This document shows, piece after piece, positions 33,783-44,305 of a stretch of DNA of 64,000 nt. The notes under the pieces were generated by a model, which was not told the DNA's origin, made no database searches, and was given only the letters and a program-made list of their open reading frames with translations. Numbering within the stretch: the stretch's first letter is position 1; each line of letters begins with the position of its first letter. Origin of the DNA: a bacterium (GTDB lineage: Bacteria; Pseudomonadota; Gammaproteobacteria; Burkholderiales; Thiobacillaceae). The DNA lies in NCBI GenBank assembly GCA_009772925.1, contig WOUQ01000006.1, forward strand, positions 62,001 through 126,000, read 5' to 3'. Both the position numbers and the translations under genes were made by a program.

Positions 33783-35066
33783 ATGACGTCCATCGTTGCG
33801 ACCAACCAGACCATCCTGGTCGTGGGCGGCGGCATCTCCGGCATGACGGCGGCGCTCGAAGCGGCCGAAACCGGAAAGCAAGTCGTGCTGGTGGAGAAGA
33901 ACCCGTACCTGGGCGGCCGCACCGTCCAGCTCTACCGGTACTTCCCCAAGATGTGCCACCCCACCTGCGGCCTGGAAATCAACCTGCGCCGCCTCAAGGC
34001 CAATCCCCGCATCCAGGTGCTGACCCTGGCGGAAGTGACTGGCATCACCGGCAGCAAGGGCGCCTACAGCGTCTCCGTCAAGCTGAAGCCGCGCTACGTG
34101 AATACCAACTGCACTGCTTGCGGCGAGTGCGGCAAGGCGGTGCAGACCGAGATCGCCGACGCGTTCAACTACAACCTGGGCAAGATCAAGGCGGCTTATC
34201 TGCCGTCCAGCATGGCCTATCCCCAGCGTTACGTGATCGACCCGTCGATCATCGGCACGCCCGACGCCGAGCGCGCCAAGGCCGCCTGCAAGTACGACGC
34301 GGTGAACCTGGACGACCAGGAAGAAGTCATCAGCCTGAACGCCGGCGCCATCGTCTGGGCCACCGGCTGGCAGCCCTACGACGCTTCCAAGATCGTCTAC
34401 TACGGCTACGACCGCTTCGCCAACGTCATCAGCAACGTCGAATTCGAGCGCCTGGCCGATCCGCATGGCCCCACCGGCGGCAGGATCCTGCGTCCCTCAG
34501 ACGGCAAGGAAGCGAAGAACATCGCCTTCATCCAGTGTGCCGGCTCCCGCGACGAGAACCACCTGCGTCACTGTTCCCGCTTCTGCTGCATGGGCTCGCT
34601 GAAGCAGACCCACTACGTGCAGGAGAAGTACGGCGACGCGGGCAAATCGACCATCTACTACATCGACATCCGCGCCATCGACCGCTTCGAGGACTTCTAC
34701 CAGAAGGTGAAGGCCAACCCCAACGTCAGCTTCGTCAAGTCGAAGGTGGCGCGCATCACCGAGGACAAGGACGGCAACCCCGTCTGCAACGGCGTCGACA
34801 CCGAGGGCTACGTGCGCTACGCCAACGCCCATGACCTGGTGGTGCTGGCCCTGGGCATGGAGCCGTCGGTGAAGGGTGTGGAAATCCCCGCCGAGGTGAT
34901 GTCGGACTCCTCCGGCTTCATCATGGCTGATCCGGCCAACGCCGGCATCTTCGGCGCCGGCTGCGCCACCAACGCGCTGGATGTGAACCGCGCCGTGCAA
35001 AGCGCCACCGCGGCCGCGCTGCGGGCCATCCAGGTCGTCAACAAAGTCGCCCGCGCGGAGGCTTGA
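33783..35066 (+). CDS. qmoA: Quinone-interacting membrane-bound oxidoreductase subunit QmoA (HdrA-like)
   Basis: FAD-binding HdrA-type flavoprotein that passes electrons to or from APS reductase in dissimilatory sulfur metabolism. 427 residues: dinucleotide motif ILVVGGGISGMTAALEA, EKNPYLGGRTVQLYRYFPKM, CHPTCGLEINLRR, NCTACGECGKAV, and the HdrA signature HCSRFCCMGSLKQTHYVQ. I use ATG 33783, which has CGGAGGCGAACC just upstream; the frame is open to 33618 without conserved residues. The adjacent qmoB starts six bases past the stop. The aprBA genes are not in this window. Confidence 0.92.
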   Translation: MTSIVATNQTILVVGGGISGMTAALEAAETGKQVVLVEKNPYLGGRTVQLYRYFPKMCHPTCGLEINLRRLKANPRIQVLTLAEVTGITGSKGAYSVSVKLKPRYVNTNCTACGECGKAVQTEIADAFNYNLGKIKAAYLPSSMAYPQRYVIDPSIIGTPDAERAKAACKYDAVNLDDQEEVISLNAGAIVWATGWQPYDASKIVYYGYDRFANVISNVEFERLADPHGPTGGRILRPSDGKEAKNIAFIQCAGSRDENHLRHCSRFCCMGSLKQTHYVQEKYGDAGKSTIYYIDIRAIDRFEDFYQKVKANPNVSFVKSKVARITEDKDGNPVCNGVDTEGYVRYANAHDLVVLALGMEPSVKGVEIPAEVMSDSSGFIMADPANAGIFGAGCATNALDVNRAVQSATAAALRAIQVVNKVARAEA

Positions 35067-35071
35067 GAAAA

Positions 35072-37327
35072 ATGGCTGATACGAAAACTGCTGCTTATAT
35101 CTGCAAGGGCTGCGAGATCGACAAACGCGTCGATGTCTCCGCCCTCGTCAAGACCGCCACCAAGTCCGGCAAGATGAACCTCGTGCGCGAGCACGACTTC
35201 CTCTGCTCCGCCGAAGGCGTGGCGATGATCCAGAACGACATCGACAACGAAGGCGTGACCCACGCCGCCATCTGCGCCTGCTCCCGCCGGGCGAAGACCG
35301 AGGCGTTCAACTTCCCGACCATCGCCATGAGCCGGGGCAACCTGCGCGAAGGCGTGATCTGGATTCGTCCCGACACCGAGGACGCCCGCGAGACCACCCA
35401 GGAGATGGCCGAGGACTACGTGCGCATGGCCTGCGCCGAGGTGAAGGCCATGCAGGTGCCGCCCGGCAACCAGAAGACCGGCACCGTCAAGACCCTGCTG
35501 GTGGTCGGTGGCGGCATGTCCGGCATGACCTCCGCCCTGGAAGCCTCCAAGGCCGGCTACAAGGTGGTCCTGGTCGAGAAGACCGGCGCCCTGGGCGGCT
35601 GGGCCGGCAAGCTCTACCGCCGCGTGCCCACCCGCGAACCGTTCAAGGCCCCCGAGGACAACGGCGTCGCCGACATGGTCGCGCGCATCGAGGCCGATTC
35701 GAACATCAAGGTGTATCTCAACGCCACCATCGCCAAGACCGACGGCGCCCCCGGCCGCTTCAAGGTGGAGATCGCCATCGAATCCGGCGGCATCGCCCAG
35801 GAAGACATCGGCGCCATCGTCCAGGCCACCGGCTTCAGCCTCTACGACGCCAACAAGCTGCCCGAATTCGGCTACGGCAAGACCCCCAACGTGGTCGATC
35901 AGGCCGGCCTGGAGGCTTTGGCCCGCGAAGCCGCCGCCGCCGGCAAGCCGATCTGCCGGCCCTTCGACGGCCAGCCGGTGAAATCCGTGGTGTTCGTGCA
36001 ATGCGCCGGCCAGCGCGACGCTTCCGGTACCCACTTGCAGTACTGCTCCGGCTTCTGCTGCAACACCAGCATCAAGCAGGCCATGTACTTCAAGGACGCC
36101 AACCCGGACATCGACACCGTGGTGCTGTTCACCGACCTGCGCACTCCCGGCAACGGCGAGGACTTCTACCGCGCCGCCCAGAACAAGGGCGTGATCTTCT
36201 CCAAGGGCGTCGTTTCCAGCGTCACCCCCAGCGGCAATGCCTGCGCGGTGAAGTTCAAGGACCTGATCCTGAATGAGGACACCGAGGCGCAGGCCGACCT
36301 GGTCGTGCTGGCCACCGGCATGGTGCCCAACAGCGGTCCCGACCTCGACCAGTTGTCCGAGGCCAACCGCCAAGCCGAGGGTGGCGACGAGGCCGCCAAG
36401 GAGCAGGTGGTGCAACTGATGTCCAAGTCCGTGCTCAACCTGACCTACCGTCAGGGCCCGGACATGCCCCAGTTCAAGCACGGCTTCAACGACAGCCACT
36501 TCATCTGCTTCCCCTACGAAACCCGCCGTACCGCCATCTACACGGCCGGCCCGGTGCGCCGCCCGATGGACATCCTGCAGGCCCAGGAAGACGCCACCGG
36601 CGCCGCCATGAAGGCGATCCAGGCCTTGGAAAACGCCGGTCTGGGCAAGGCCGCCCACCCGCGCGCCGGCGACCTGTCCTTCCCCACCGTGCGTCTGGAA
36701 GGCTGCACCCAGTGCAAGCGCTGCACGGTGGAATGCCCGTTCGGCGCCATCGACGAAGACGAGAAGCGCTTCCCGCTGTTCAACGAGTCGCGCTGCCGCC
36801 GCTGCGGCACCTGCATGGGCGCCTGCCCGGTGCGGGTGATCTCCTTCGAGAATTACTCGGTGAACACCGTGGGCAGCCAGATCAAGGCCGTGGACGTGCC
36901 GGACGAGTTCTCCGAGAAGCCGCGCATCCTCATCCTGGCCTGCGAGAACGACGCCTACCCGGCGCTCGACATGGCCGGCATGAACCGCCACGAGTACGAC
37001 CCCTACGTGCGCGTCATCCCGATCCGCTGCCTGGGTTCGGTGAACACCATCTGGATCACCGATGCGCTCAACGGGGGCTACGACGGCGTCATGCTGATGG
37101 GCTGCAAGCACGGCGAGGAATACCAGTGCCACTTCGTCAAGGGTTCCGAACTGGGCCGCTACCGCCTGTCCAAGGTGGGCGACACCCTCAAGGGCATGAA
37201 CCTGGAAACCGAGCGGGTCATGGACCTGGAAGTGGCGATCACCGACATCGCCACCCTGCCCCAGAAGATCAACGACTACGCGGCGCTGATCAAGTCCTTC
37301 CCGCCGTCCCCGTTCAAGGGCTTCTAA
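35072..37327 (+). CDS. qmoB: Quinone-interacting oxidoreductase subunit QmoB (HdrA-MvhD fusion)
   Basis: 751-residue iron-sulfur flavoprotein. N-terminal region ICKGCEIDKRVD; FAD motif TLLVVGGGMSGMTSALEA near residue 145; HdrA cysteine motif QYCSGFCCNTSIKQAMYF; two ferredoxin-type clusters (CTQCKRCTVECP and CRRCGTCMGACPVRVI) near residues 545-590; then an MvhD-like C-terminal domain (ILACENDAYPALDMAG ... GCKHGEEYQCHF). This HdrA + MvhD layout defines QmoB and suggests flavin-based electron handling. ATG 35072 is preferred over the upstream TTG at 35063. Confidence 0.92.
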   Translation: MADTKTAAYICKGCEIDKRVDVSALVKTATKSGKMNLVREHDFLCSAEGVAMIQNDIDNEGVTHAAICACSRRAKTEAFNFPTIAMSRGNLREGVIWIRPDTEDARETTQEMAEDYVRMACAEVKAMQVPPGNQKTGTVKTLLVVGGGMSGMTSALEASKAGYKVVLVEKTGALGGWAGKLYRRVPTREPFKAPEDNGVADMVARIEADSNIKVYLNATIAKTDGAPGRFKVEIAIESGGIAQEDIGAIVQATGFSLYDANKLPEFGYGKTPNVVDQAGLEALAREAAAAGKPICRPFDGQPVKSVVFVQCAGQRDASGTHLQYCSGFCCNTSIKQAMYFKDANPDIDTVVLFTDLRTPGNGEDFYRAAQNKGVIFSKGVVSSVTPSGNACAVKFKDLILNEDTEAQADLVVLATGMVPNSGPDLDQLSEANRQAEGGDEAAKEQVVQLMSKSVLNLTYRQGPDMPQFKHGFNDSHFICFPYETRRTAIYTAGPVRRPMDILQAQEDATGAAMKAIQALENAGLGKAAHPRAGDLSFPTVRLEGCTQCKRCTVECPFGAIDEDEKRFPLFNESRCRRCGTCMGACPVRVISFENYSVNTVGSQIKAVDVPDEFSEKPRILILACENDAYPALDMAGMNRHEYDPYVRVIPIRCLGSVNTIWITDALNGGYDGVMLMGCKHGEEYQCHFVKGSELGRYRLSKVGDTLKGMNLETERVMDLEVAITDIATLPQKINDYAALIKSFPPSPFKGF

Positions 37328-37337
37328 GGAGATTGTG

Positions 37338-37976
37338 ATGAGCGACCTGAATCAAGAGATGGCCGAGCGCTACAAGAACAATTTCCTCAAGGAGATTGAA
37401 GAGCAGGCCGAGATGGGCGAGTGGGTGAAGATGTGCATGCAGTGCGGCCTGTGCTCCGGCTCCTGCCCCACCAACTTCCATTCCGGCTGGGATCATCCGC
37501 CGCAGGAGATCTTCATGCTGATTCGCGCCGGCAAGCGCGAAGAGGTGCTGAACTCCGAAGGCATGTACATGTGCACGTCCTGCTACAACTGCTACGTGCG
37601 CTGCCCGCGCAAGGTGCCGGTGACCCACGTCATGCACGGCATCGCCGAATACGCCTACCGCATCGGCCGCGCGCCCAAGGCGCAGCCCACCCTGCACCTG
37701 TCGAAGACCTTCTGGAGCAACGCCACCAAGTACGGCCGCGTCAACGAGGTGCAGCTCACCCAGAGCCTGTACTTCAAGGACGGCGTTGGCGCCGGCATCA
37801 AGAAGGGCCTGGAGATGAAGGACGTCGCCCTGGGCCTGGTCAAGGCTGGCCGCCTCAACCCGCTGGAAGCGCTGGGCATGGGCCACAAGTGCAAGGACAT
37901 CAAGGGCATCCACGCCATGCTGGCCAAGGCTGAAGAGCTGGAAGCCAGGAACAAGGCCGCGAAGGGTAAGGAGTAA
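37338..37976 (+). CDS. HdrC-like iron-sulfur subunit (replaces part of QmoC)
   Basis: 213-residue or slightly shorter soluble protein with two ferredoxin-type [4Fe-4S] motifs: CMQCGLCSGSCPTNFH (near residue 34) and CTSCYNCYVRCPRKVP (near residue 77). It resembles HdrC of heterodisulfide reductase and the N-terminal part of QmoC, but lacks QmoC's cytochrome b membrane domain. It begins 10 bases after qmoB, with AAGGAG upstream, and is followed by hdrB after six bases. Confidence 0.88.
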   Translation: MSDLNQEMAERYKNNFLKEIEEQAEMGEWVKMCMQCGLCSGSCPTNFHSGWDHPPQEIFMLIRAGKREEVLNSEGMYMCTSCYNCYVRCPRKVPVTHVMHGIAEYAYRIGRAPKAQPTLHLSKTFWSNATKYGRVNEVQLTQSLYFKDGVGAGIKKGLEMKDVALGLVKAGRLNPLEALGMGHKCKDIKGIHAMLAKAEELEARNKAAKGKE

Positions 37977-37982
37977 TCAGAC

Positions 37983-38879
37983 ATGGCACGCAAGGAATAC
38001 GCTTTCTACCCCGGCTGCTCGTCCCAGAAGGGCGCCTCGGCCTCCAACTACCTGGTTTCCGTCGAGTCCATGTGCAAGACCCTGGACATCAAGATGACCG
38101 AGATCCCCGACTGGAACTGCTGCGGCGCCTCCATCAGCTACGCCGAAGCCGGCGAACTGCCGCGGCACGTGATGAACGCCCGCAACTTCGCGCTGGCCGA
38201 AACCAACCTGCCCGGCCAGGACATCGTCGCCACCTGTGCCGCCTGCTGGCTGGGCGCGCGGGAATCGAAGGAGCGCCTGGAACACAGTTCCGGCCTCATG
38301 GCCGACACCCAGACCGCGCTGAAGGAAGCTGGCCTCGCCATCAAGGTCATCCCCGAAGTGCGTCACATGGTCGAGGTGCTGATCGAGGACCTGGGCTACG
38401 ACGAACTGAAGAAGCCGGTGAAGAAGCCCCTGCAGGGCATGAAGTTCGCCGGCTACGTCGGCTGCCAGACCAACCGCCCCTTCGGTATCGCCGGCGAATC
38501 CTTCGAGAACCCCATGTATCTCGACAAGCTGATCGAGACCGTGGGCGGCGAAGCGGTCAAGTACGACCAGAAGGTGACCTGCTGCGGCGGGGCGCTAGCC
38601 TTCTCCGAGCCGGAAAAGGCGCAGGGCCAGATCAAGGACATCATCGAGGCCGCCTATGACGGTGGCGCCGAGATGATCGTCACCCCCTGCCCGCTGTGCC
38701 AGGCCAACGTCGAGGTCTACCAGGGCCAGATCAACAAGCGCTACGGCACCAAGTTCGACATTCCGGTGCTCTACTACTCCCAGTTGATGACCCTGGCCTA
38801 CGGCGGCTCCGCCAAGGACGCCGGCCTCAACGGCAACGTGGTGCGGGCGAGGAAGCTGGAAGAGTTCGCGGGCAAGTGA
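37983..38879 (+). CDS. HdrB-like CCG-domain subunit
   Basis: 298-residue protein with two cysteine-rich CCG domains. The first has PGCSSQ, NCCGAS and CAACW; the second has GCQTNRP, TCCGGALAF and CPLCQANVEVYQ. In HdrB these bind unusual [4Fe-4S] clusters that act on thiol/disulfide substrates or pass electrons. With hdrC it takes the place of qmoC at the end of the operon, the organisation described for some Gram-positive sulfate reducers and reported in some sulfur oxidisers. A terminator follows. Confidence 0.88.
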   Translation: MARKEYAFYPGCSSQKGASASNYLVSVESMCKTLDIKMTEIPDWNCCGASISYAEAGELPRHVMNARNFALAETNLPGQDIVATCAACWLGARESKERLEHSSGLMADTQTALKEAGLAIKVIPEVRHMVEVLIEDLGYDELKKPVKKPLQGMKFAGYVGCQTNRPFGIAGESFENPMYLDKLIETVGGEAVKYDQKVTCCGGALAFSEPEKAQGQIKDIIEAAYDGGAEMIVTPCPLCQANVEVYQGQINKRYGTKFDIPVLYYSQLMTLAYGGSAKDAGLNGNVVRARKLEEFAGK

Positions 38880-38942: not shown

Positions 38943-39359
38943 TTAAGTTGGCACAACCACTCTGGGAGACAGATTCAGCCGCTGGGCGCGGCGCGCGAAG
39001 CGCTTGTCGTCGAACGAAGCCATCTCGGCGCAGTCACGATAGGCCGCTAGATGCAACGCATCGGCGAAATCCAACCCTGCCGACATATGGGACAGCGCCT
39101 GTGCGACGCCGGCCCGGTCTTCCATGTGGACTTGCTCAAGGCACAGCAGGTGGCTGAAAGCACCGGCTATTTCCTCCGCATCGAAGCCGTAGTAACCGCG
39201 CATGACCCATTCCAGTTCCAGCAGCACGGTCTTGCAGACCATCAAGGGCGCGCCGGATTCGATCAGGCTCCGCGCCGCCTCATGTTGGCGCCGCGCCTCG
39301 GCATCGGCGTCATCCTGGATGTAGTAGCGCGCCAGGATGTTGGTATCCAGGCCGATCAT
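38943..39359 (-). CDS. PIN-domain toxin, VapC type
   Basis: 138-residue predicted ribonuclease toxin. PIN acids are visible: MIGLDTNILARYYIQDD (D5), ELEWVMRGYYGF (Glu near residue 48), and DFADALHLAAYRDC (Asp near residues 96-100), with ASFDDKRFAR near the end. The start is ATG 39359, overlapping the antitoxin stop (ATGA), the classic toxin-antitoxin order with antitoxin first. Confidence 0.88.
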   Translation of the reverse strand: MIGLDTNILARYYIQDDADAEARRQHEAARSLIESGAPLMVCKTVLLELEWVMRGYYGFDAEEIAGAFSHLLCLEQVHMEDRAGVAQALSHMSAGLDFADALHLAAYRDCAEMASFDDKRFARRAQRLNLSPRVVVPT

Positions 39360-39589
39360 GGCTTCAGCAGGCTGGCGGGATCGAAGTCCGCGGGAACCGC
39401 CGCGCGACGGCTCTTGAGCAGGCCGAACCCGCTGCCCGAAGGCGCGGTGGGCGTATGCAACACGCGCATTTCCAGGTGATCGTCGACCAGTACGAACTCG
39501 ATTCGGCTGCCCTGGCGAATGCCCAACTCCCGCCGCAGCGCTTGCGGGATGGTGACCTGACCCTTGCTGGTGACGGTGGTCGCTTCCAT
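39356..39589 (-). CDS. AbrB/SpoVT-type antitoxin, VapB type
   Basis: 77 residues. The N-terminal swapped-hairpin DNA-binding domain reads TVTSKGQVTIPQALRRELGI, GSRIEFVLVDDHLEMRVL. The C-terminal tail (LLKSRRAAVPADFDPASLL) would bind and block the toxin. It is overlapped by the toxin gene. Antitoxins of this type usually repress their own promoter. Confidence 0.88.
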   Translation of the reverse strand: MEATTVTSKGQVTIPQALRRELGIRQGSRIEFVLVDDHLEMRVLHTPTAPSGSGFGLLKSRRAAVPADFDPASLLKP

Positions 39590-39777: not shown

Positions 39778-40194
39778 TCAGCCGTTGCCAGCCAGCGGCA
39801 ACACCCCATTCGCCCGCGCCAGGGCGATGATGACCTCGCGCGCCACCTTGCGTTGCGGCACGGGCAGTTTGAGGAACAGTTCGAAAATTTCCCGTTCCTG
39901 GTAACCGATACCCTCGTCCCAGCGTTTGCGCCGTTCGCGCACCGCTTCGGGTATTTCGTCTCCGTAGCGCAGGGTTGCCGGCTCCACGCCCAGCCATTCG
40001 GCCAGGCAGAGCAGACGATCATGGGTAGGCATCGTCTCCCCACGCAACCACAGTCGCGCCGCATGCAGGGTAATCGGCTTGCCCCAGTAGCGCTGATTGA
40101 ACTCGCGCTCGATCACGGTGGGTTTGGCCGGCACGCCCGCGCGATCGAGCGCGGCGAGCAGGCGCTGCGAAAACTCGACTTTGGCTTTGTTCAT
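39778..40194 (-). CDS. XRE-type helix-turn-helix transcriptional regulator
   Basis: 138-residue predicted DNA-binding protein. The N-terminal part has a lambda-repressor-like fold with the recognition region WGKPITLHAARLWLRGETMP and HDRLLCLAEWLGVEPATLRYG. The C-terminal half is helical (FELFLKLPVPQRKVAREVIIALARA). No sensor or peptidase domain is present. It is divergent from the speD operon with a 168-base AT-rich gap containing inverted repeats, so it may control that operon, itself, or both. Confidence 0.8.
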   Translation of the reverse strand: MNKAKVEFSQRLLAALDRAGVPAKPTVIEREFNQRYWGKPITLHAARLWLRGETMPTHDRLLCLAEWLGVEPATLRYGDEIPEAVRERRKRWDEGIGYQEREIFELFLKLPVPQRKVAREVIIALARANGVLPLAGNG

Positions 40195-40362
40195 GCCAAA
40201 TACTCACGTTCGCAGCGTAATTACCACTCGTGTAATGATGCTAATCGAATTATTATTCGAGTTACGCTCGATATCGGACCGCGCGGCCGTCGAGGCGATG
40301 GTAACGATCAATAACGGGGTATTCCCGCCGTTCTGGCGGGCGGGGAAGGATGGCACAACCGG
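40195..40362. promoter_or_regulatory. Divergent control region of the XRE regulator and speD operon
   Basis: This gap is much richer in A and T than its surroundings. It contains the palindrome GTAATTAC (40217-40224) and the inverted repeat TCGAATTATTATTCGA (40245-40260), which look like regulator half-sites. A TATTAT -10-like word overlaps the latter. Near speD, CCCGCC-GTTCT-GGCGGG (40324-40340) forms a hairpin about 20 bases before the start codon and could limit ribosome access. Confidence 0.5.
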
Positions 40363-40764
40363 ATGTCACATTTTGGCGAACACGTTACCTATGATGGCTA
40401 TGGCGGCGCCTACGCCGCACTCGATGACTGCGTGACCGTTACCCAGGCGCTGACGGATCTCGTCGCCGAATTGGGCATGACCGTACTGGGCGGTCCCGAG
40501 GTGTATCGCGCGATGGCCAACGACAAGAAAGACCCCGGCGGCTGGACCGGCATGGTCGTCCTGCAGGAAAGCCACATCAGCATCCACACCTTCCCGGCGC
40601 GCGGTTTCCTGTCCGCCGATGTTTATACCTGCCAGAACGGCCTCGACGTGGCGGTCATCCAGAGGTTTCTCCGGATCCGCTTCGGCATCGCCGACGAGGA
40701 AGTGCACTTCCTCAAGCGCGGCACGCGCTATCCATCCCACGACATCCATCCACAGTCGCCATGA
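40363..40764 (+). CDS. speD: S-adenosylmethionine decarboxylase proenzyme (SpeD/SpeH type)
   Basis: Pyruvoyl enzyme that decarboxylates AdoMet to the aminopropyl donor used for spermidine and related amines. 133 residues, the short prokaryotic class 1b form. The self-cleavage site is QESHISIHTFP (between E69 and S70), the catalytic histidine is in the same motif, and the catalytic cysteine is C90 in DVYTC. It opens the five-gene operon and overlaps the next start (ATGA). No aminopropyltransferase (SpeE) is encoded in the window, so the destination of the product is open. Confidence 0.92.
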   Translation: MSHFGEHVTYDGYGGAYAALDDCVTVTQALTDLVAELGMTVLGGPEVYRAMANDKKDPGGWTGMVVLQESHISIHTFPARGFLSADVYTCQNGLDVAVIQRFLRIRFGIADEEVHFLKRGTRYPSHDIHPQSP

Positions 40765-41792
40765 CTTCATCCGCCAGCCAGTTGCCGATCCTGGAATTCA
40801 TCCTCAGGTCCTACCACCACTTCAACGCGGCGGCGCTGAAGAACGCCTTGCGCGACTACCACGCCCACCTGCAAAACGGCGGCAAGATGTTCTGGACCCT
40901 GGCCGGGGCGATGTCGAGCGCGCGCCTGGGCATCCATCTCGCCCCGGCCATCCGAAAAGGGTTGATCCACGGGTTGTCCGTGACCGGCGCCAACCTAGAA
41001 GAGTCGCTATTCCGCCTCGTCGCCCACCACCACTTCGCGAATTTCTACGATTACCGCTATCTGCGTAAGGAGGATGACGCGGCCATCCTCGCCAGGCAGC
41101 AGCGCCGTGTCACTGACACCAGCATTCCCGAGGACGAGGCCTTCCGCAAGGTCGAGCAATTGATCGTGCCCATGTGGCAGCGCGCCCATGCCCAAGGCGA
41201 GCGGCGTTTCTGGCATGAGTATTTCTACGAGTTGATCACCGATCCGGCGCTTGAGGCAGCCTACGAAGGCAGGCCGGAGGAATGCTGGCTGCTCGCCGCC
41301 GCCGAGATGAAGCTGCCGCTGATCGTCGGCGGCTATGCCGATTCCACCTTCGGCAACATCTTCGCCAGCTACTGCCATACCGGAGAGGTCTCCGTCGGCA
41401 TCGCCAAGTCCGACATCGAATACATGAGCGCCTTCTACGACATTTACCAGAAGGTGCTGTCACCCGGCGCGGGTGTCGGCTTCTTCCAGATCGGCGGCGG
41501 CATCGCCGGCGACTTCCCGATCTGCGTCGTGCCCAGCATCAAGTACGACCTGCGGGAAAGCGTCAAGCCCTGGGCCTACTTCTGCCAGATCAGCGATTCC
41601 GTCACCTCCTATGGTTCCTATTCTGGTGCCACGCCGAACGAGAAGATCACCTGGGACAAGCTGACCCAGGACACGCCCATGCACGTAATCGAGAGCGATG
41701 CCACCATCGTCGCGCCGTTGATCCTGCAAGCCCTGCTTGAAGCGCGACGCCATCCGGAGGCGGCGGCTCGCTTGATGGCGGAAGCGTATTGA
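40761..41792 (+). CDS. Deoxyhypusine-synthase-like protein lacking the canonical active-site lysine
   Basis: 343-residue NAD-binding protein of the deoxyhypusine synthase fold. Matches include NGGKMFWTLAGAMSSARLG near the N-terminus, GLIHGLSVTGANLEESLF, FQIGGGIAGDFPICVVP (242-258) and the C-terminal SYSGATPNEKITWDKL. In human deoxyhypusine synthase the nucleophilic lysine follows GGG as GGGVVK; here the sequence is GGGIAGDF, so that lysine is absent. Bacteria have no eIF5A, so the activity must differ: homospermidine-synthase-like, another amine transfer, or none. It is sandwiched between speD and a SET-domain gene and coupled to speD. Confidence 0.85.
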   Translation: MTSSASQLPILEFILRSYHHFNAAALKNALRDYHAHLQNGGKMFWTLAGAMSSARLGIHLAPAIRKGLIHGLSVTGANLEESLFRLVAHHHFANFYDYRYLRKEDDAAILARQQRRVTDTSIPEDEAFRKVEQLIVPMWQRAHAQGERRFWHEYFYELITDPALEAAYEGRPEECWLLAAAEMKLPLIVGGYADSTFGNIFASYCHTGEVSVGIAKSDIEYMSAFYDIYQKVLSPGAGVGFFQIGGGIAGDFPICVVPSIKYDLRESVKPWAYFCQISDSVTSYGSYSGATPNEKITWDKLTQDTPMHVIESDATIVAPLILQALLEARRHPEAAARLMAEAY

Positions 41793-41807
41793 TCCCCGGG
41801 CGGGCGC

Positions 41808-42323
41808 ATGGCCGGTTTTCACCTGAGCTGGACCCATCCAAAGTTGGCCAAACACCGCTTCGGCGGCGCCCGGGGAACGGGCGTGATCGCGCTGGCGCCG
41901 ATCCGGCGTGGGGAGCTGCTCTCCCGCTTCGGTGGCTATGTCATGACCTTCGAGGAATTTCTGCGGCTGCCGCCGGCCTTGCAAGAGATCCCTTACCAGA
42001 TTGCCGATGACCTGCTGTTTGGGCCGATATCGCGGCAAGGCCTGACGGTGAGCGAGTATTACAACCACAGTTGCGATCCCAATGCCGGCTTCAGGGATTC
42101 CATGACGCTGGTCGCCATGCGTACTATCCGGCCCGGCGAGGAAGTGGCTTTCGACTACTGCATGTGTGTATCCACCTGTTTGTTCGACTTCAATTGCAGC
42201 TGCGGAACACCAGCCTGCCGCAAGCGTGTTCGCGGCGATGACTGGAAGAATCAGGCCTTGCAGGCATCCTACCAGGGCTATTTCGTGCCCTACCTGCAAG
42301 ACAAGATCGCACGGCTGAAATGA
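41808..42323 (+). CDS. SET-domain protein lysine methyltransferase with post-SET cysteines
   Basis: 171 residues, essentially one SET domain. AdoMet-binding motif GTGVIALAPIRRGELLSRFGG (residue 23 on), catalytic YYNHSCDPNAGF (84-95), the pseudoknot GEEVAFDYCMC (110-120), and a post-SET cluster CSCGTPACRKRV (C130, C132, C137, with C118 or C120 as possible fourth ligand) that would bind zinc. SET proteins are mainly eukaryotic, and bacterial examples are scattered and usually horizontally acquired. The substrate is unknown. It begins 15 bases after the deoxyhypusine-synthase-like gene. Confidence 0.88.
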   Translation: MAGFHLSWTHPKLAKHRFGGARGTGVIALAPIRRGELLSRFGGYVMTFEEFLRLPPALQEIPYQIADDLLFGPISRQGLTVSEYYNHSCDPNAGFRDSMTLVAMRTIRPGEEVAFDYCMCVSTCLFDFNCSCGTPACRKRVRGDDWKNQALQASYQGYFVPYLQDKIARLK

Positions 42324-42862
42324 TGGACGGAATGCGGGTGGCCGGCCTGGGCGATAAGCTCGCCCCCTACGGGACACGCCTGCGGATCATGGCCGTGGGC
42401 CACACCGGCAATGCCTGCATCGGGATCGGCTTCGATTACGTCATCTACGGGCTGGCCATTGCCACTCTGGGACCGCTCAAGGGAGGCTTGTTGATGATTG
42501 CCGTCTCCTTCCTGATCGACTTGGCGTTGATCCGCTTCTACGACTGGTCCAGAACCGACTGGTTGGGCATCGAAATGCTCAAGGACGTCCGCGACAACCC
42601 CGTCCGTTCGCGGCCGCAGAGGCTGCTGCAATGGCTGCTGCGCAAGGGGGACGCGGTCGCCCTGGTGGCGCTGTCGTTCAAGCTCAACCCCTTCAATGTG
42701 ATGCTTTACCTGCGCCGGGGCGCCTATCTCTACAACGGCATGGCGCGGCGGGACTGGCTGGTGCTCATCGCCTCCACCCTGATCGGCAACCTCTACTGGA
42801 TCCTGGTGATGTGGGGGGCGACATCCGGGCTGATGCACCTGTGGGAGACCTGGATTGGGTGA
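42320..42862 (+). CDS. Unrecognised integral membrane protein
   Basis: 180 residues with three or four hydrophobic segments (FDYVIYGLAIATLGPLKGG; LLMIAVSFLIDLALIRFY; FNVMLYLRRGAYLY; DWLVLIASTLIGNLYWILVM). The N-terminus has RLRIMAVGHTGNACIGIG and the middle a basic cytoplasmic loop (RDNPVRSRPQRLLQWLLRKG). I do not recognise a family. It overlaps the SET gene by four bases and the following methyltransferase frame, so it is an integral member of the operon, perhaps an anchor or exporter for its product. Confidence 0.75.
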   Translation: MMDGMRVAGLGDKLAPYGTRLRIMAVGHTGNACIGIGFDYVIYGLAIATLGPLKGGLLMIAVSFLIDLALIRFYDWSRTDWLGIEMLKDVRDNPVRSRPQRLLQWLLRKGDAVALVALSFKLNPFNVMLYLRRGAYLYNGMARRDWLVLIASTLIGNLYWILVMWGATSGLMHLWETWIG

Positions 42863-42908
42863 GACCGCACCGACCACGCTGTTGCCAACAGCCATGCAGG
42901 ACGCACAC

Positions 42909-43742
42909 ATGACGACCATCGTCCAGCCCTATTTCGCCATGACTGATGGTGTCTTCGACTGCATGATCGACATCGAGCGCACCGAGGCCTTCGCGCGGGC
43001 GATCGCGGCGACGGTGCGGCGCGGCGACGTGGTGGTCGACATGGGTACAGGTTCGGGAGTCCTCGCTTTGCTCGCGGCGCGGGTGGGCGCCGGAAAGGTC
43101 TATGCGGTGGAACTCGATGCGAACAACATCGCCACGCTGGAGGTCGTCTTCCGCGCCAACGGCTTGTCGAAGCACATCGTGCTGGTGCAGGGAGACGTGC
43201 GCACGGTGGAACTGCCGGAAAAAGTCGACGTCATCATCGGCGAAATGATCGCCACGGCGCTGATCGATGAATTGCAGGTGCCGGCCATGAACCACATGCT
43301 GCGCTACGCCAAACCAGATGCACGCGTGCTGCTGAGCCGCTACCGGACCTTTGCCGACCTGGTCGACAACCCGGCGAACTATTACGGTTTCGAATTTCCG
43401 CTGGTGCGCTACGAATACCCGGACCTGCGGCGCCTGCGTTCCAGGGCACTTACCGACAAACAGTTGATCCTGGACGCAGACTTCACGCGGCCGGTGACCG
43501 CCACACGGGTGGACAGTCGTCTGAGTCTGACCGCGCAACGGCGCGGCCGCGTCAACGGCCTGCGCCTGTCGAGCGAAACGACCTTCTGGGATGGCTCGAC
43601 GCTGGGCGCGACCTACGCCTACAGCTATCCCATCATCCTGCCCGTTGACCCCATCGAGATCGCCAAGGGCGAAGTGATCGAGGCGCGGGTCGGCTACACG
43701 ATCTGCGGTGGGATGGGGACGTTGAAGTGGGCGGTGGGGTAA
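42909..43742 (+). CDS. PRMT-like class I SAM methyltransferase
   Basis: 277-residue Rossmann methyltransferase with motif I VVDMGTGSGVLALLAARVGAGK, acidic strand-2 end YAVELDANN, and VDVIIGEMIATALIDE. The last resembles the 'double-E' loop of protein arginine methyltransferases, with only one of the two glutamates in the usual spacing. The C-terminal half is rich in beta strands (RVDSRLSLTAQRRGRVNGLR), also PRMT-like. I use ATG 42909 (CAGGA 8 bases upstream); TTG 42855 or ATG 42894 are alternatives. It could use AdoMet or, given speD, decarboxylated AdoMet; this is untested. Confidence 0.8.
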   Translation: MTTIVQPYFAMTDGVFDCMIDIERTEAFARAIAATVRRGDVVVDMGTGSGVLALLAARVGAGKVYAVELDANNIATLEVVFRANGLSKHIVLVQGDVRTVELPEKVDVIIGEMIATALIDELQVPAMNHMLRYAKPDARVLLSRYRTFADLVDNPANYYGFEFPLVRYEYPDLRRLRSRALTDKQLILDADFTRPVTATRVDSRLSLTAQRRGRVNGLRLSSETTFWDGSTLGATYAYSYPIILPVDPIEIAKGEVIEARVGYTICGGMGTLKWAVG

Positions 43743-43850
43743 TGGTGATTGAAACAGCGTCAGGCTGAGTCTGTCGCTTTCTTGCCGCTGAGTGGGACCG
43801 CCATGCCGATTCAGGCGGGCGACTTGCGGGGGGCAATGATTCATGGAATG

Positions 43851-43876
43851 AAAACAGGGGCCGCGGCCCCTGTTTT
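43851..43876. terminator. Bidirectional intrinsic terminator closing the speD operon
   Basis: A 26-base perfect palindrome with CAGGGGCCGCGGCCCCTG at its centre and AAAA/TTTT ends. It lies between the convergent methyltransferase and four-helix-protein genes. Confidence 0.82.
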
Positions 43877-43894
43877 CGTTGGCGCGGTCCCGGT

Positions 43895-44305
43895 CTACTT
43901 GCAGCCCATCGCGGCGCGCATTTTACCCATGCGCTGGGCCTGGATGCCGGTGCCGATGGCCTTGGCGTCGGCGTTCTTGCCGGCGTAGATCAGGGGCACG
44001 ATCTCGCCGTCACGGGTGGCCTTGAATTCTTCCCAGGTCGGTTTGAAGGCGGCGGCCTTCGCCGCGTCGTCGGCGTTGTAGCTCTTCGCCATGGCGGCCA
44101 GGGTGGCGTCGACCTTGGCGGTGGCTGCGGCGATGTTGGCCTTGAGGCCATCGTTGGTGGCCTTGTCGGTGGAGTCGAGCATCTTGACCAGGTTGCCACG
44201 CGCGTCCATCAAGGCGGCGCAGGCGTCGTCGGCCGGGGCGGCCAGGGCGGCGCCGCTGGAGAAGACGGCCAGGGAAGCGATCATGAGCAGAGATTTCTTG
44301 TACAT
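43895..44305 (-). CDS. Periplasmic four-helix-bundle protein, standalone
   Basis: 136 residues. A Sec signal peptide (KKSLLMIASLAVFSSGAALA, cut near residue 22) precedes an all-helical domain (DACAALMDARGNLVKMLDS, KATNDGLKANIAAATAKVD, TWEEFKATRDGEIVPLIYAG, AKAIGTGIQAQRMGKM). It resembles the periplasmic 4HB sensor module of chemoreceptors or cytochrome c-prime, but there is no CxxCH haem motif. Two cysteines (near residue 28 and at MGCK) could form a disulfide. The function is unknown. The upstream FNR-type site suggests oxygen-responsive expression. Confidence 0.72.
   Translation of the reverse strand: MYKKSLLMIASLAVFSSGAALAAPADDACAALMDARGNLVKMLDSTDKATNDGLKANIAAATAKVDATLAAMAKSYNADDAAKAAAFKPTWEEFKATRDGEIVPLIYAGKNADAKAIGTGIQAQRMGKMRAAMGCK

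Follow-up and report, generated by a model that had tools for sequence, protein, structure and literature searches.

The operon analysed here joins a SpeD homolog and a deoxyhypusine-synthase (DHS) homolog to a SET-domain methyltransferase, a small membrane protein and a PRMT-fold methyltransferase, and may constitute a committed pathway whose product is a small molecule of methylated homospermidine type and not a modified protein; we hold this reading tentatively, with a little less than even confidence. In the window, by which we mean the whole 64,000-nucleotide stretch of DNA analysed, the five open reading frames lie on the + strand as initially annotated, and recomputation gave gaps of −4, +15, −4 and +46 bases between them. 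SpeD homologs are commonly named AdoMet decarboxylases and DHS homologs protein-modifying enzymes, and both names probably mislead here.

A Candidatus Nitrotoga MAG was the single further genome in which the gene set recurred; it carries all five genes at 46–81% identity (52% for the membrane protein) in a different order, together with a second SET gene. Because it recurs there in reordered form, the set exceeds chance, and such reordering points to a functional link between the genes; the earlier proposal of a dedicated multi-gene modification pathway was thus supported by conservation of the set in this one genome. The relatives gave a divided answer as to whether the genes stay together: the complete set was found in 1 of the best 80 DHS relatives, the closest one, while 78 of the 80 had no SpeD homolog beside DHS (at most 7 kb on each side, several flanks reaching contig ends). 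A Paceibacterota genome encodes SpeD and DHS 134 bases apart without the other three operon genes; neither SpeE nor the arginase/agmatinase family nor either of two PLP decarboxylase families was matched in it, so that its SpeD probably supplies the amine. In another genome (G121), which has a DHS relative at 71% identity, a SpeD with Trp-Pro-Glu lies on a separate contig, and co-occurrence without linkage therefore also exists. The best relatives of the SET protein (L073, 39%) and of the PRMT-like protein (L072) in the 249-genome samples lay at loci without the other operon genes. A mobile or viral origin was considered and set aside: the plasmid collection held no DHS match, the 35 viral SpeD loci found held no DHS, SET, PRMT, membrane-protein or GAMT homolog at E 1e-4, a viral scan for membrane-protein homologs returned none, and the GC content of the operon, 0.622 where the whole window has 0.659, is no more than suggestive.

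The SpeD homolog (40,363–40,764, + strand; Pfam AdoMet_dc, 81.8 bits), a pyruvoyl decarboxylase, is, judging from its sequence, probably not an AdoMet decarboxylase. It carries Ala79 where solved and SpeE-linked SpeDs carry a Glu (E72 of Thermotoga maritima SpeD, after a W-P pair), a residue with a role in ribose binding. This column held Glu in 9 of 9 SpeE-linked SpeDs vs. Ala, Gly, Ala and Lys in the SpeDs of the window, Nitrotoga, Paceibacterota and a further genome, G650 (sampled from the phylum of L081; L212/L236); among 67 aligned rows it was Glu in 55 and another residue in 12. The SpeD of phage phiYS40, a validated AdoMet type, has Asp in this column, indicating that Glu itself is not indispensable to an AdoMet-type SpeD. 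Glu is retained in the SpeD of pelagiphage HTVC048P, and its loss is therefore not an ADC signature; the validated ADC comes from pelagiphage HTVC201P instead. In the tree, built from only 122 columns and containing long branches, the same four SpeDs formed one clade (98/82), and all nine SpeE-linked SpeDs fell with three validated-type phage SpeDs in another (99/85), the window SpeD lying outside the 72-row AdoMet decarboxylase clade (99/85). Against TIGR03330 (NCBIfam; cut-off 75.65 bits), the window and Nitrotoga SpeDs scored below the cut-off (71.4 and 73.4 bits) and the Paceibacterota SpeD above it (82.7 bits), the latter counting against the non-AdoMet reading. The catalytic residues Ser70, His75 and Cys90 were present in the window SpeD and invariant in all 16 aligned rows; those of T. 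maritima SpeD are S63, H68 and C83 (Li et al., 2023; PMC10407285).

According to the same study (PMC10407285), arginine or ornithine can take the place of AdoMet as substrate for SpeD homologs whose genes cluster with a DHS homolog (SpeY), and most arginine-specific SpeDs adjoin speY. The claim that the SpeD product is decarboxylated AdoMet was consequently not borne out: clade placement and the missing Glu speak against it, as do these published SpeY-linked enzymes (PMC10407285). The main mark of an ADC is given as non-conservation, not invariable absence, of a proline conserved in AdoMet decarboxylases (PMC10407285); the window SpeD keeps Pro78, on the assumption that this aligned Pro is the published one, whose position appears only in a figure. 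For the ornithine-specific type (SpeDC), four residues, Gln, Thr, Phe and Tyr, are named (PMC10407285, Figure 8), and Q68, T76, F77 and Y88 of the window SpeD follow this order, order alone being comparable as the text gives no positions. The Q68 column read Q, A, E and A in the window SpeD and its three relatives.

The DHS homolog (40,761–41,792, + strand; Pfam DS, 113.2 bits) was assigned to the SpeY (homospermidine) type. Its best NCBIfam model was NF001980, homospermidine biosynthesis, at 93.3 bits, far below the cut-off of 450; the deoxyhypusine-synthase models scored at most 85 bits, also far below their cut-offs. Alignment to 8put located the motif PNEKITWDK, with an active-site lysine (K300) that was invariant in 10 of 10 rows and that we take to be K329 in DHS numbering. 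Since the protein is nearer to the homospermidine than to the deoxyhypusine models, its product is more likely to be a small molecule than a modified lysine in a protein, and the protein-modification reading was lowered.

The fifth gene (42,909–43,742, + strand) encodes a PRMT-fold methyltransferase with a guanidino-methyltransferase-type active site, and matched class-I methyltransferase families in Pfam. Its AlphaFold model (pLDDT 85) aligned with PRMT1 (1or8) over 258 of 277 residues (Z 25.4, rmsd 2.6) and has the PRMT fold, with the C-terminal barrel included in the prediction. Besides the full-length fold (Z 25), it shares with PRMT1, PRMT3 and CARM1 the double-E spacing and the AdoMet-site motif: E112 and E121 of the E-x8-E loop were invariant in 4 of 4 rows and nearly invariant in a 12-row alignment, and E-R-T, aligned with V-R-T of CARM1, contains the Arg that binds the AdoMet carboxylate. 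In contrast to these enzymes it is genetically linked to amine enzymes, and it is shorter (277 residues vs. 298–313 for the PRMT1 and PRMT3 chains, at approximately 22% identity). The PRMT motif THW appears to be absent from the aligned C-terminal region, where the place judged by eye to be equivalent reads TFW (window) and IFC (Nitrotoga). Because the E-R-T motif is kept, a role as an aminopropyltransferase using decarboxylated AdoMet was given less weight. A defence system was also rejected, as PADLOC matched gene 5 alone, with methyltransferase models (best MADS mad2, E 3e-22, residues 36–149).

A guanidino substrate is suggested by the G650 locus, where a homolog of guanidinoacetate N-methyltransferase (GAMT; E 4.5e-32) begins 29 bases downstream of SpeD; the 18-kb SpeD region contained no DHS, SET, PRMT or membrane-protein homolog. 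In the window and Nitrotoga, the SpeDs of this clade are instead accompanied by a PRMT-type enzyme with E-x8-E, and the GAMT homolog belongs to a family unrelated to it. Two unrelated guanidino-methyltransferase types therefore accompany this SpeD clade, an argument built on a single GAMT case and a single PRMT type.

The SET-domain methyltransferase (41,808–42,323, + strand; Pfam SET, 43.4 bits) ends in a post-SET cysteine cluster, and all five aligned rows share NHSC, the catalytic Tyr and CxCxxxxC. Its best solved relative was BurB (9l4t), a methionine S-methyltransferase, and histone lysine methyltransferases scored nearly as high. According to PMC12542666, BurB is a SET protein able to act on a free amino acid, methionine; like the operon protein, it is a small SET protein with post-SET cysteines. 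Between the two methyltransferase genes lies the small membrane protein (42,320–42,862, + strand), with approximately four transmembrane segments by hydropathy. It belongs to no known family, having no match in Pfam, NCBIfam, PHROGs or PADLOC, and its predicted structure (pLDDT 46) was excluded from structure comparison.

The gene set and its recurrence, the SpeD clade with its lost Glu, and the PRMT fold with its active-site spacing are observations; from them we infer the substrates, the order of steps and the export of the following pathway. SpeD would cleave itself at its serine and then convert arginine to agmatine (or ornithine to putrescine) rather than decarboxylate AdoMet. The DHS/SpeY homolog, using NAD+, would transfer the aminobutyl group of putrescine to a second amine, either agmatine or putrescine; the resulting triamine would be of homospermidine type and might carry a guanidino group. 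The PRMT-fold enzyme would methylate its guanidino end and the SET enzyme, by analogy with BurB acting on free methionine, an amine, while the membrane protein may export or anchor the product. The ornithine version is weakened by an OKR_DC_1 decarboxylase in the genome carrying the window, through which diamine may be available without SpeD; no arginase/agmatinase match was found in that genome. It is rather doubtful, though conceivable, that PRMT-fold and SET-fold enzymes were co-recruited as methyltransferases for both ends, guanidino and amino, of a new agmatine/homospermidine-type polyamine made by a neofunctionalised SpeD and DHS homolog.

PRMT and SET enzymes usually methylate proteins, which counts against a small-molecule product. 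Their being classic protein methyltransferase folds agrees with an ornithine-decarboxylating SpeD and SpeY making homospermidine while the linked SET and PRMT enzymes methylate a protein, perhaps homospermidine's partner, the membrane protein being linked too. The Paceibacterota SpeD-DHS pair without the other three genes, the ODC-like residue order and the published arginine- or ornithine-specific SpeDs beside SpeY (PMC10407285) fit this explanation as well, yet we regard it as unlikely: Q68 varies in the three relatives, the published residue positions appear in a figure only, and the linkage of two methyltransferase folds to amine enzymes in both genomes suggests one shared substrate.

The initial annotation had SpeD supply decarboxylated AdoMet and the DHS-like enzyme modify a protein lysine later methylated by SET or PRMT. 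Retention of the catalytic Ser, His and Cys would allow this, and a phosphorylase and an IF-2B-type gene downstream of the Nitrotoga cluster, which read as MTA salvage (mtnP, mtnA), would suit decarboxylated AdoMet use. The annotation's remark that no aminopropyltransferase is present holds within the clusters, none being recognised in the window or the Nitrotoga cluster. The genome carrying the window encodes two SpeE-like proteins whose nearest model is NF003380, for polyamine aminopropyltransferases, at 284 and 288 bits against a cut-off of 304; a Nitrotoga SpeE-like protein reached 219 bits with this model. Although these proteins favour the protein-lysine scheme, we consider it quite improbable in view of the SpeD clade and missing Glu, the homospermidine-like DHS homolog and the lack of a recognised in-cluster aminopropyltransferase gene. 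Fairly improbable, too, is an order that begins with methylation of free arginine by the PRMT-like enzyme, after which SpeD converts N-methylarginine to N-methylagmatine for the DHS homolog. The changed SpeD pocket and the guanidino-methyltransferase association of its clade accord with this, but the step order is conjectural. SznE, a PRMT-like enzyme, reportedly acts on free arginine in streptozotocin synthesis; the portion of the literature searched held no paper on SznE by name.

The methylated homospermidine-type product that we favour would extend a known theme, since published SpeD-SpeY clusters already include ones in which the specificity of SpeD has shifted. The operon shares with those homospermidine clusters (Li et al., 2023; PMC10407285) a DHS homolog next to a small SpeD homolog of the pyruvoyl type, SpeE being absent; the SET, membrane and PRMT genes are the addition. 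In the main text of that paper 'SET domain' does not occur, and 'methyltransferase' occurs a single time. The statement that no system with this gene set has been described held for the literature searched, partial as it was, which yielded no combination of SpeD-SpeY with a PRMT fold, SET and an orphan membrane protein, and nothing on methylated agmatine or polyamines clearly tied to the operon. If correct, the proposal would bring a methylated (guanidino) polyamine into bacterial metabolism and extend the PRMT and SET folds to roles in small-molecule chemistry.

Upstream, a candidate regulator of helix-turn-helix type (39,778–40,194, − strand; 138 aa) is transcribed divergently; it matched a DicA-type repressor model weakly (NCBIfam, E 3e-4) and had no Pfam match. 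A divergent HTH gene (HTH_3) accompanies the Nitrotoga cluster too, the two proteins giving no significant alignment (best E 0.48). The intervening control region (40,195–40,362; 168 bases) had been described as AT-rich, and its GC content was indeed lower (54.2% vs. 65.9% for the window), but no sigma-70-type promoter appeared in a scan of 40,100–44,000. A simple terminator scanner over the same interval did not list the hairpin at 43,847–43,880, whose near-perfect stem has one G-U pair and folds at −25.6 kcal/mol (z −4.9; 0 of 200 shuffles equally stable), in line with the strong terminator noted earlier at the operon end. It lies 104 bases 3′ of gene 5, just ahead of a convergent gene, and may serve both as a bidirectional terminator.

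The five genes that the initial annotation had described, encoding a SpeD, a deoxyhypusine synthase (DHS) homolog, a SET-domain protein, a membrane protein and a PRMT-like protein (gene 5), were present and tightly spaced on the + strand at positions 40363–43742, and the intergenic gaps computed from the gene coordinates (−4, +15, −4, and +46) matched those it had given. The best start of gene 5 was the ATG at 42909, and a near-perfect hairpin with one G-U pair (43847–43880) precedes a convergent gene. A small regulator candidate (39778–40194) is divergent from the operon; beyond it lie a MazE-type antitoxin and a PIN-domain protein on the − strand (38943–39589), likely a toxin-antitoxin pair and near the operon. 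On the same upstream side, HdrA/FlpD-like, iron-sulfur, and CCG-domain (HdrB-like) proteins are encoded in a row on the + strand (35063–38879). Pfam searches of the operon returned AdoMet_dc, DS (deoxyhypusine synthase), SET, and methyltransferase families, and no match for the membrane protein.

Among 100 genomes sampled from the window's family, the only DHS match was the window genome itself; in the phylum sample, 37 of 398 genomes matched, own genome included; ten of the others shared 48–71% identity and the remainder ≤29%. None of the other four operon proteins was found around those ten relatives by tblastn with all five proteins. A scan of GTDB species genomes found 347 DHS relatives; among the best 80 of these 347, inspected with flanks of up to 7 kb (several shortened by contig ends), a SpeD homolog was nearby in two loci, all five genes in one, and a weak SET or PRMT-type match in two further loci. 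As to the conservation of the neighborhood, the five-gene set is real and linked, recurring whole in one locus, but rare (1 of the best 80 of 347). An order-wide search that used four related SpeDs, aligned, as its query matched 140 of 399 sampled genomes, the window's own SpeD scoring 235 bits vs. 63 for the next best.

In Candidatus Nitrotoga sp. CP45 (locus L080), a divergent HTH gene is followed by SpeD, PRMT, and a second SET gene and, after a 603-base gap containing one ORF with no Pfam match, by DHS, SET, and the membrane protein. Identities to the window were 50% for SpeD, 50% for PRMT, 81% for DHS, 46% for SET, and 52% for the membrane protein. That all five parts are retained despite their shuffled order is the strongest argument for a joint function. 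Directly downstream on the same strand (L080:9745–12889) are genes for a PNP/MTAP-type phosphorylase, an aldolase, apt, and an IF-2B-type protein (mtnA), which, with the names mtnP, mtnA, apt, and aldolase assigned by eye, are read as MTA salvage. The Paceibacterota locus L081 holds only SpeD (65%) and DHS (71%) of the five, and an EamA-type transporter gene 12 bases after them.

The initial annotation's view of SpeD as a source of decarboxylated AdoMet was not borne out: the Glu position, clade placement, and model score taken together make AdoMet an unlikely substrate judging from sequence comparison, and do not tell arginine and ornithine apart. The Glu of solved AdoMet decarboxylases (HTWPE) is replaced by A in the window, G in Nitrotoga, A in Paceibacterota, and K in genome G650, and is present in 9/9 SpeE-linked SpeDs (linkage was called where some ORF of the locus carried the motif GGG[DE]G). 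Across all aligned SpeD rows, in which L209 repeats L081, 55 of 67 have E and 12 do not; one of these 12, phage phiYS40, has Asp yet is of the validated AdoMet type. In a 106-row tree built on 122 columns and with several long branches, including P2559S and phiYS40, the four SpeDs formed one clade (support 98/82) outside a 72-row clade (99/85) containing all nine SpeE-linked rows together with S-PM2, P2559S, and phiYS40, phage SpeDs named as validated AdoMet decarboxylases in PMC9992855. This tree left out L185–L194 (class 1a), L209, L215, L216, L222, viral or order hits of <85 residues, and L227–L235 as fusions, L228 being dropped along with them though no fusion. Against the AdoMet decarboxylase model (cut-off 75.65), the window (71.4) and Nitrotoga (73.4) SpeDs scored just below, and the Paceibacterota SpeD (82.7) above.

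Li et al. (2023; PMC10407285) showed that a SpeD homolog whose genome has no SpeE, or which lies beside a second SpeD, can accept arginine or ornithine for decarboxylation; in most of the arginine-type cases examined there, its gene is clustered with speY, which encodes a DHS homolog. The genomes with such SpeDs described there are without canonical SpeA and SpeC, unlike the window genome, which has one OKR_DC_1 decarboxylase. Counting against arginine, the pelagiphage SpeD HTVC048P retains the Glu (the validated arginine decarboxylase being that of HTVC201P), and the window SpeD retains a proline, possibly the residue that SpeD-type arginine decarboxylases fail to conserve. The window genome further encodes one SpeD, one Orn_Arg_deC_N protein with lysA as best fit (partial sequence, 294.9 vs. 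a cut-off of 297.9), and two SpeE-like proteins (284 and 288 bits vs. 304 for the aminopropyltransferase model NF003380); it gave no arginase/agmatinase match. The Nitrotoga genome has an OKR_DC_1 protein and a SpeE-like protein (219 bits), and no arginase-family match. Because SpeE, the arginase family, Orn_Arg_deC_N, and OKR_DC_1 were all missing from the Paceibacterota genome, a 0.6-Mb assembly that may be incomplete, SpeD is likely its amine source.

Under the heading METHYLTRANSFERASES fall gene 5, the SET protein, and a methyltransferase homolog of G650. The AlphaFold model of gene 5 (pLDDT 85) matched PRMT1 with Z 25.4 and rmsd 2.6, 258 of the model's 277 residues being aligned, and on this modeled match gene 5 is more than a Rossmann methyltransferase; the spacing of both double-E loop glutamates of PRMTs is correct, and the THW motif was not evident. 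Among solved structures, the closest relative of the SET protein was BurB (E 2.8e-7), and histone methyltransferases followed closely (2.6e-6); since BurB methylates free methionine (PMC12542666), the SET fold is not necessarily a sign of a protein substrate. In G650, a genome sampled in the same phylum as L081, the SpeD that falls in the clade of the window SpeD (56–57% identity) is followed after 29 bases by a guanidinoacetate N-methyltransferase homolog (E 4.5e-32), the pair lying at L212:764–1863 and L236:8137–9236 (the same place), with a peptidase C26 and a GCS2-family protein upstream. Among 304 loci this homolog was restricted to L212 and L236; two more matched weakly, via SpeE-like proteins. 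Mainly because two unrelated guanidino-methyltransferase types adjoin one SpeD clade, we favor a guanidino compound as the product, on a small sample.

Beyond what is shown here, namely the operon, its recurrence, the SpeD clade with its lost Glu, and the PRMT fold, SpeD would yield agmatine or putrescine, from which the DHS homolog, nearest the homospermidine model at 93 bits with every model far below its cut-off, would assemble a triamine. PRMT and SET would methylate this triamine, and the membrane protein, with about four segments and no known family matched in family searches, could serve as exporter or anchor; EamA transporters close to SpeD in L081 and the collected locus L211 agree weakly with export. 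SpeD–SpeY clusters are already known; no description of the set with added PRMT and SET was found in searches of open-access papers.

Phage SpeD homologs with a non-Glu residue after HTFP (L199, L247, L249, L251, L252, and L256) are, by this residue, candidates for changed substrate specificity. In L222, L227, and L229–L235, the SpeD domain forms the C-terminal part of proteins of 435–458 residues, which we take to resemble branched-chain polyamine synthases. Fusions of SpeD with SpeE, 399 and 447 residues long (L177 and L179), occurred in genomes of the window's order.
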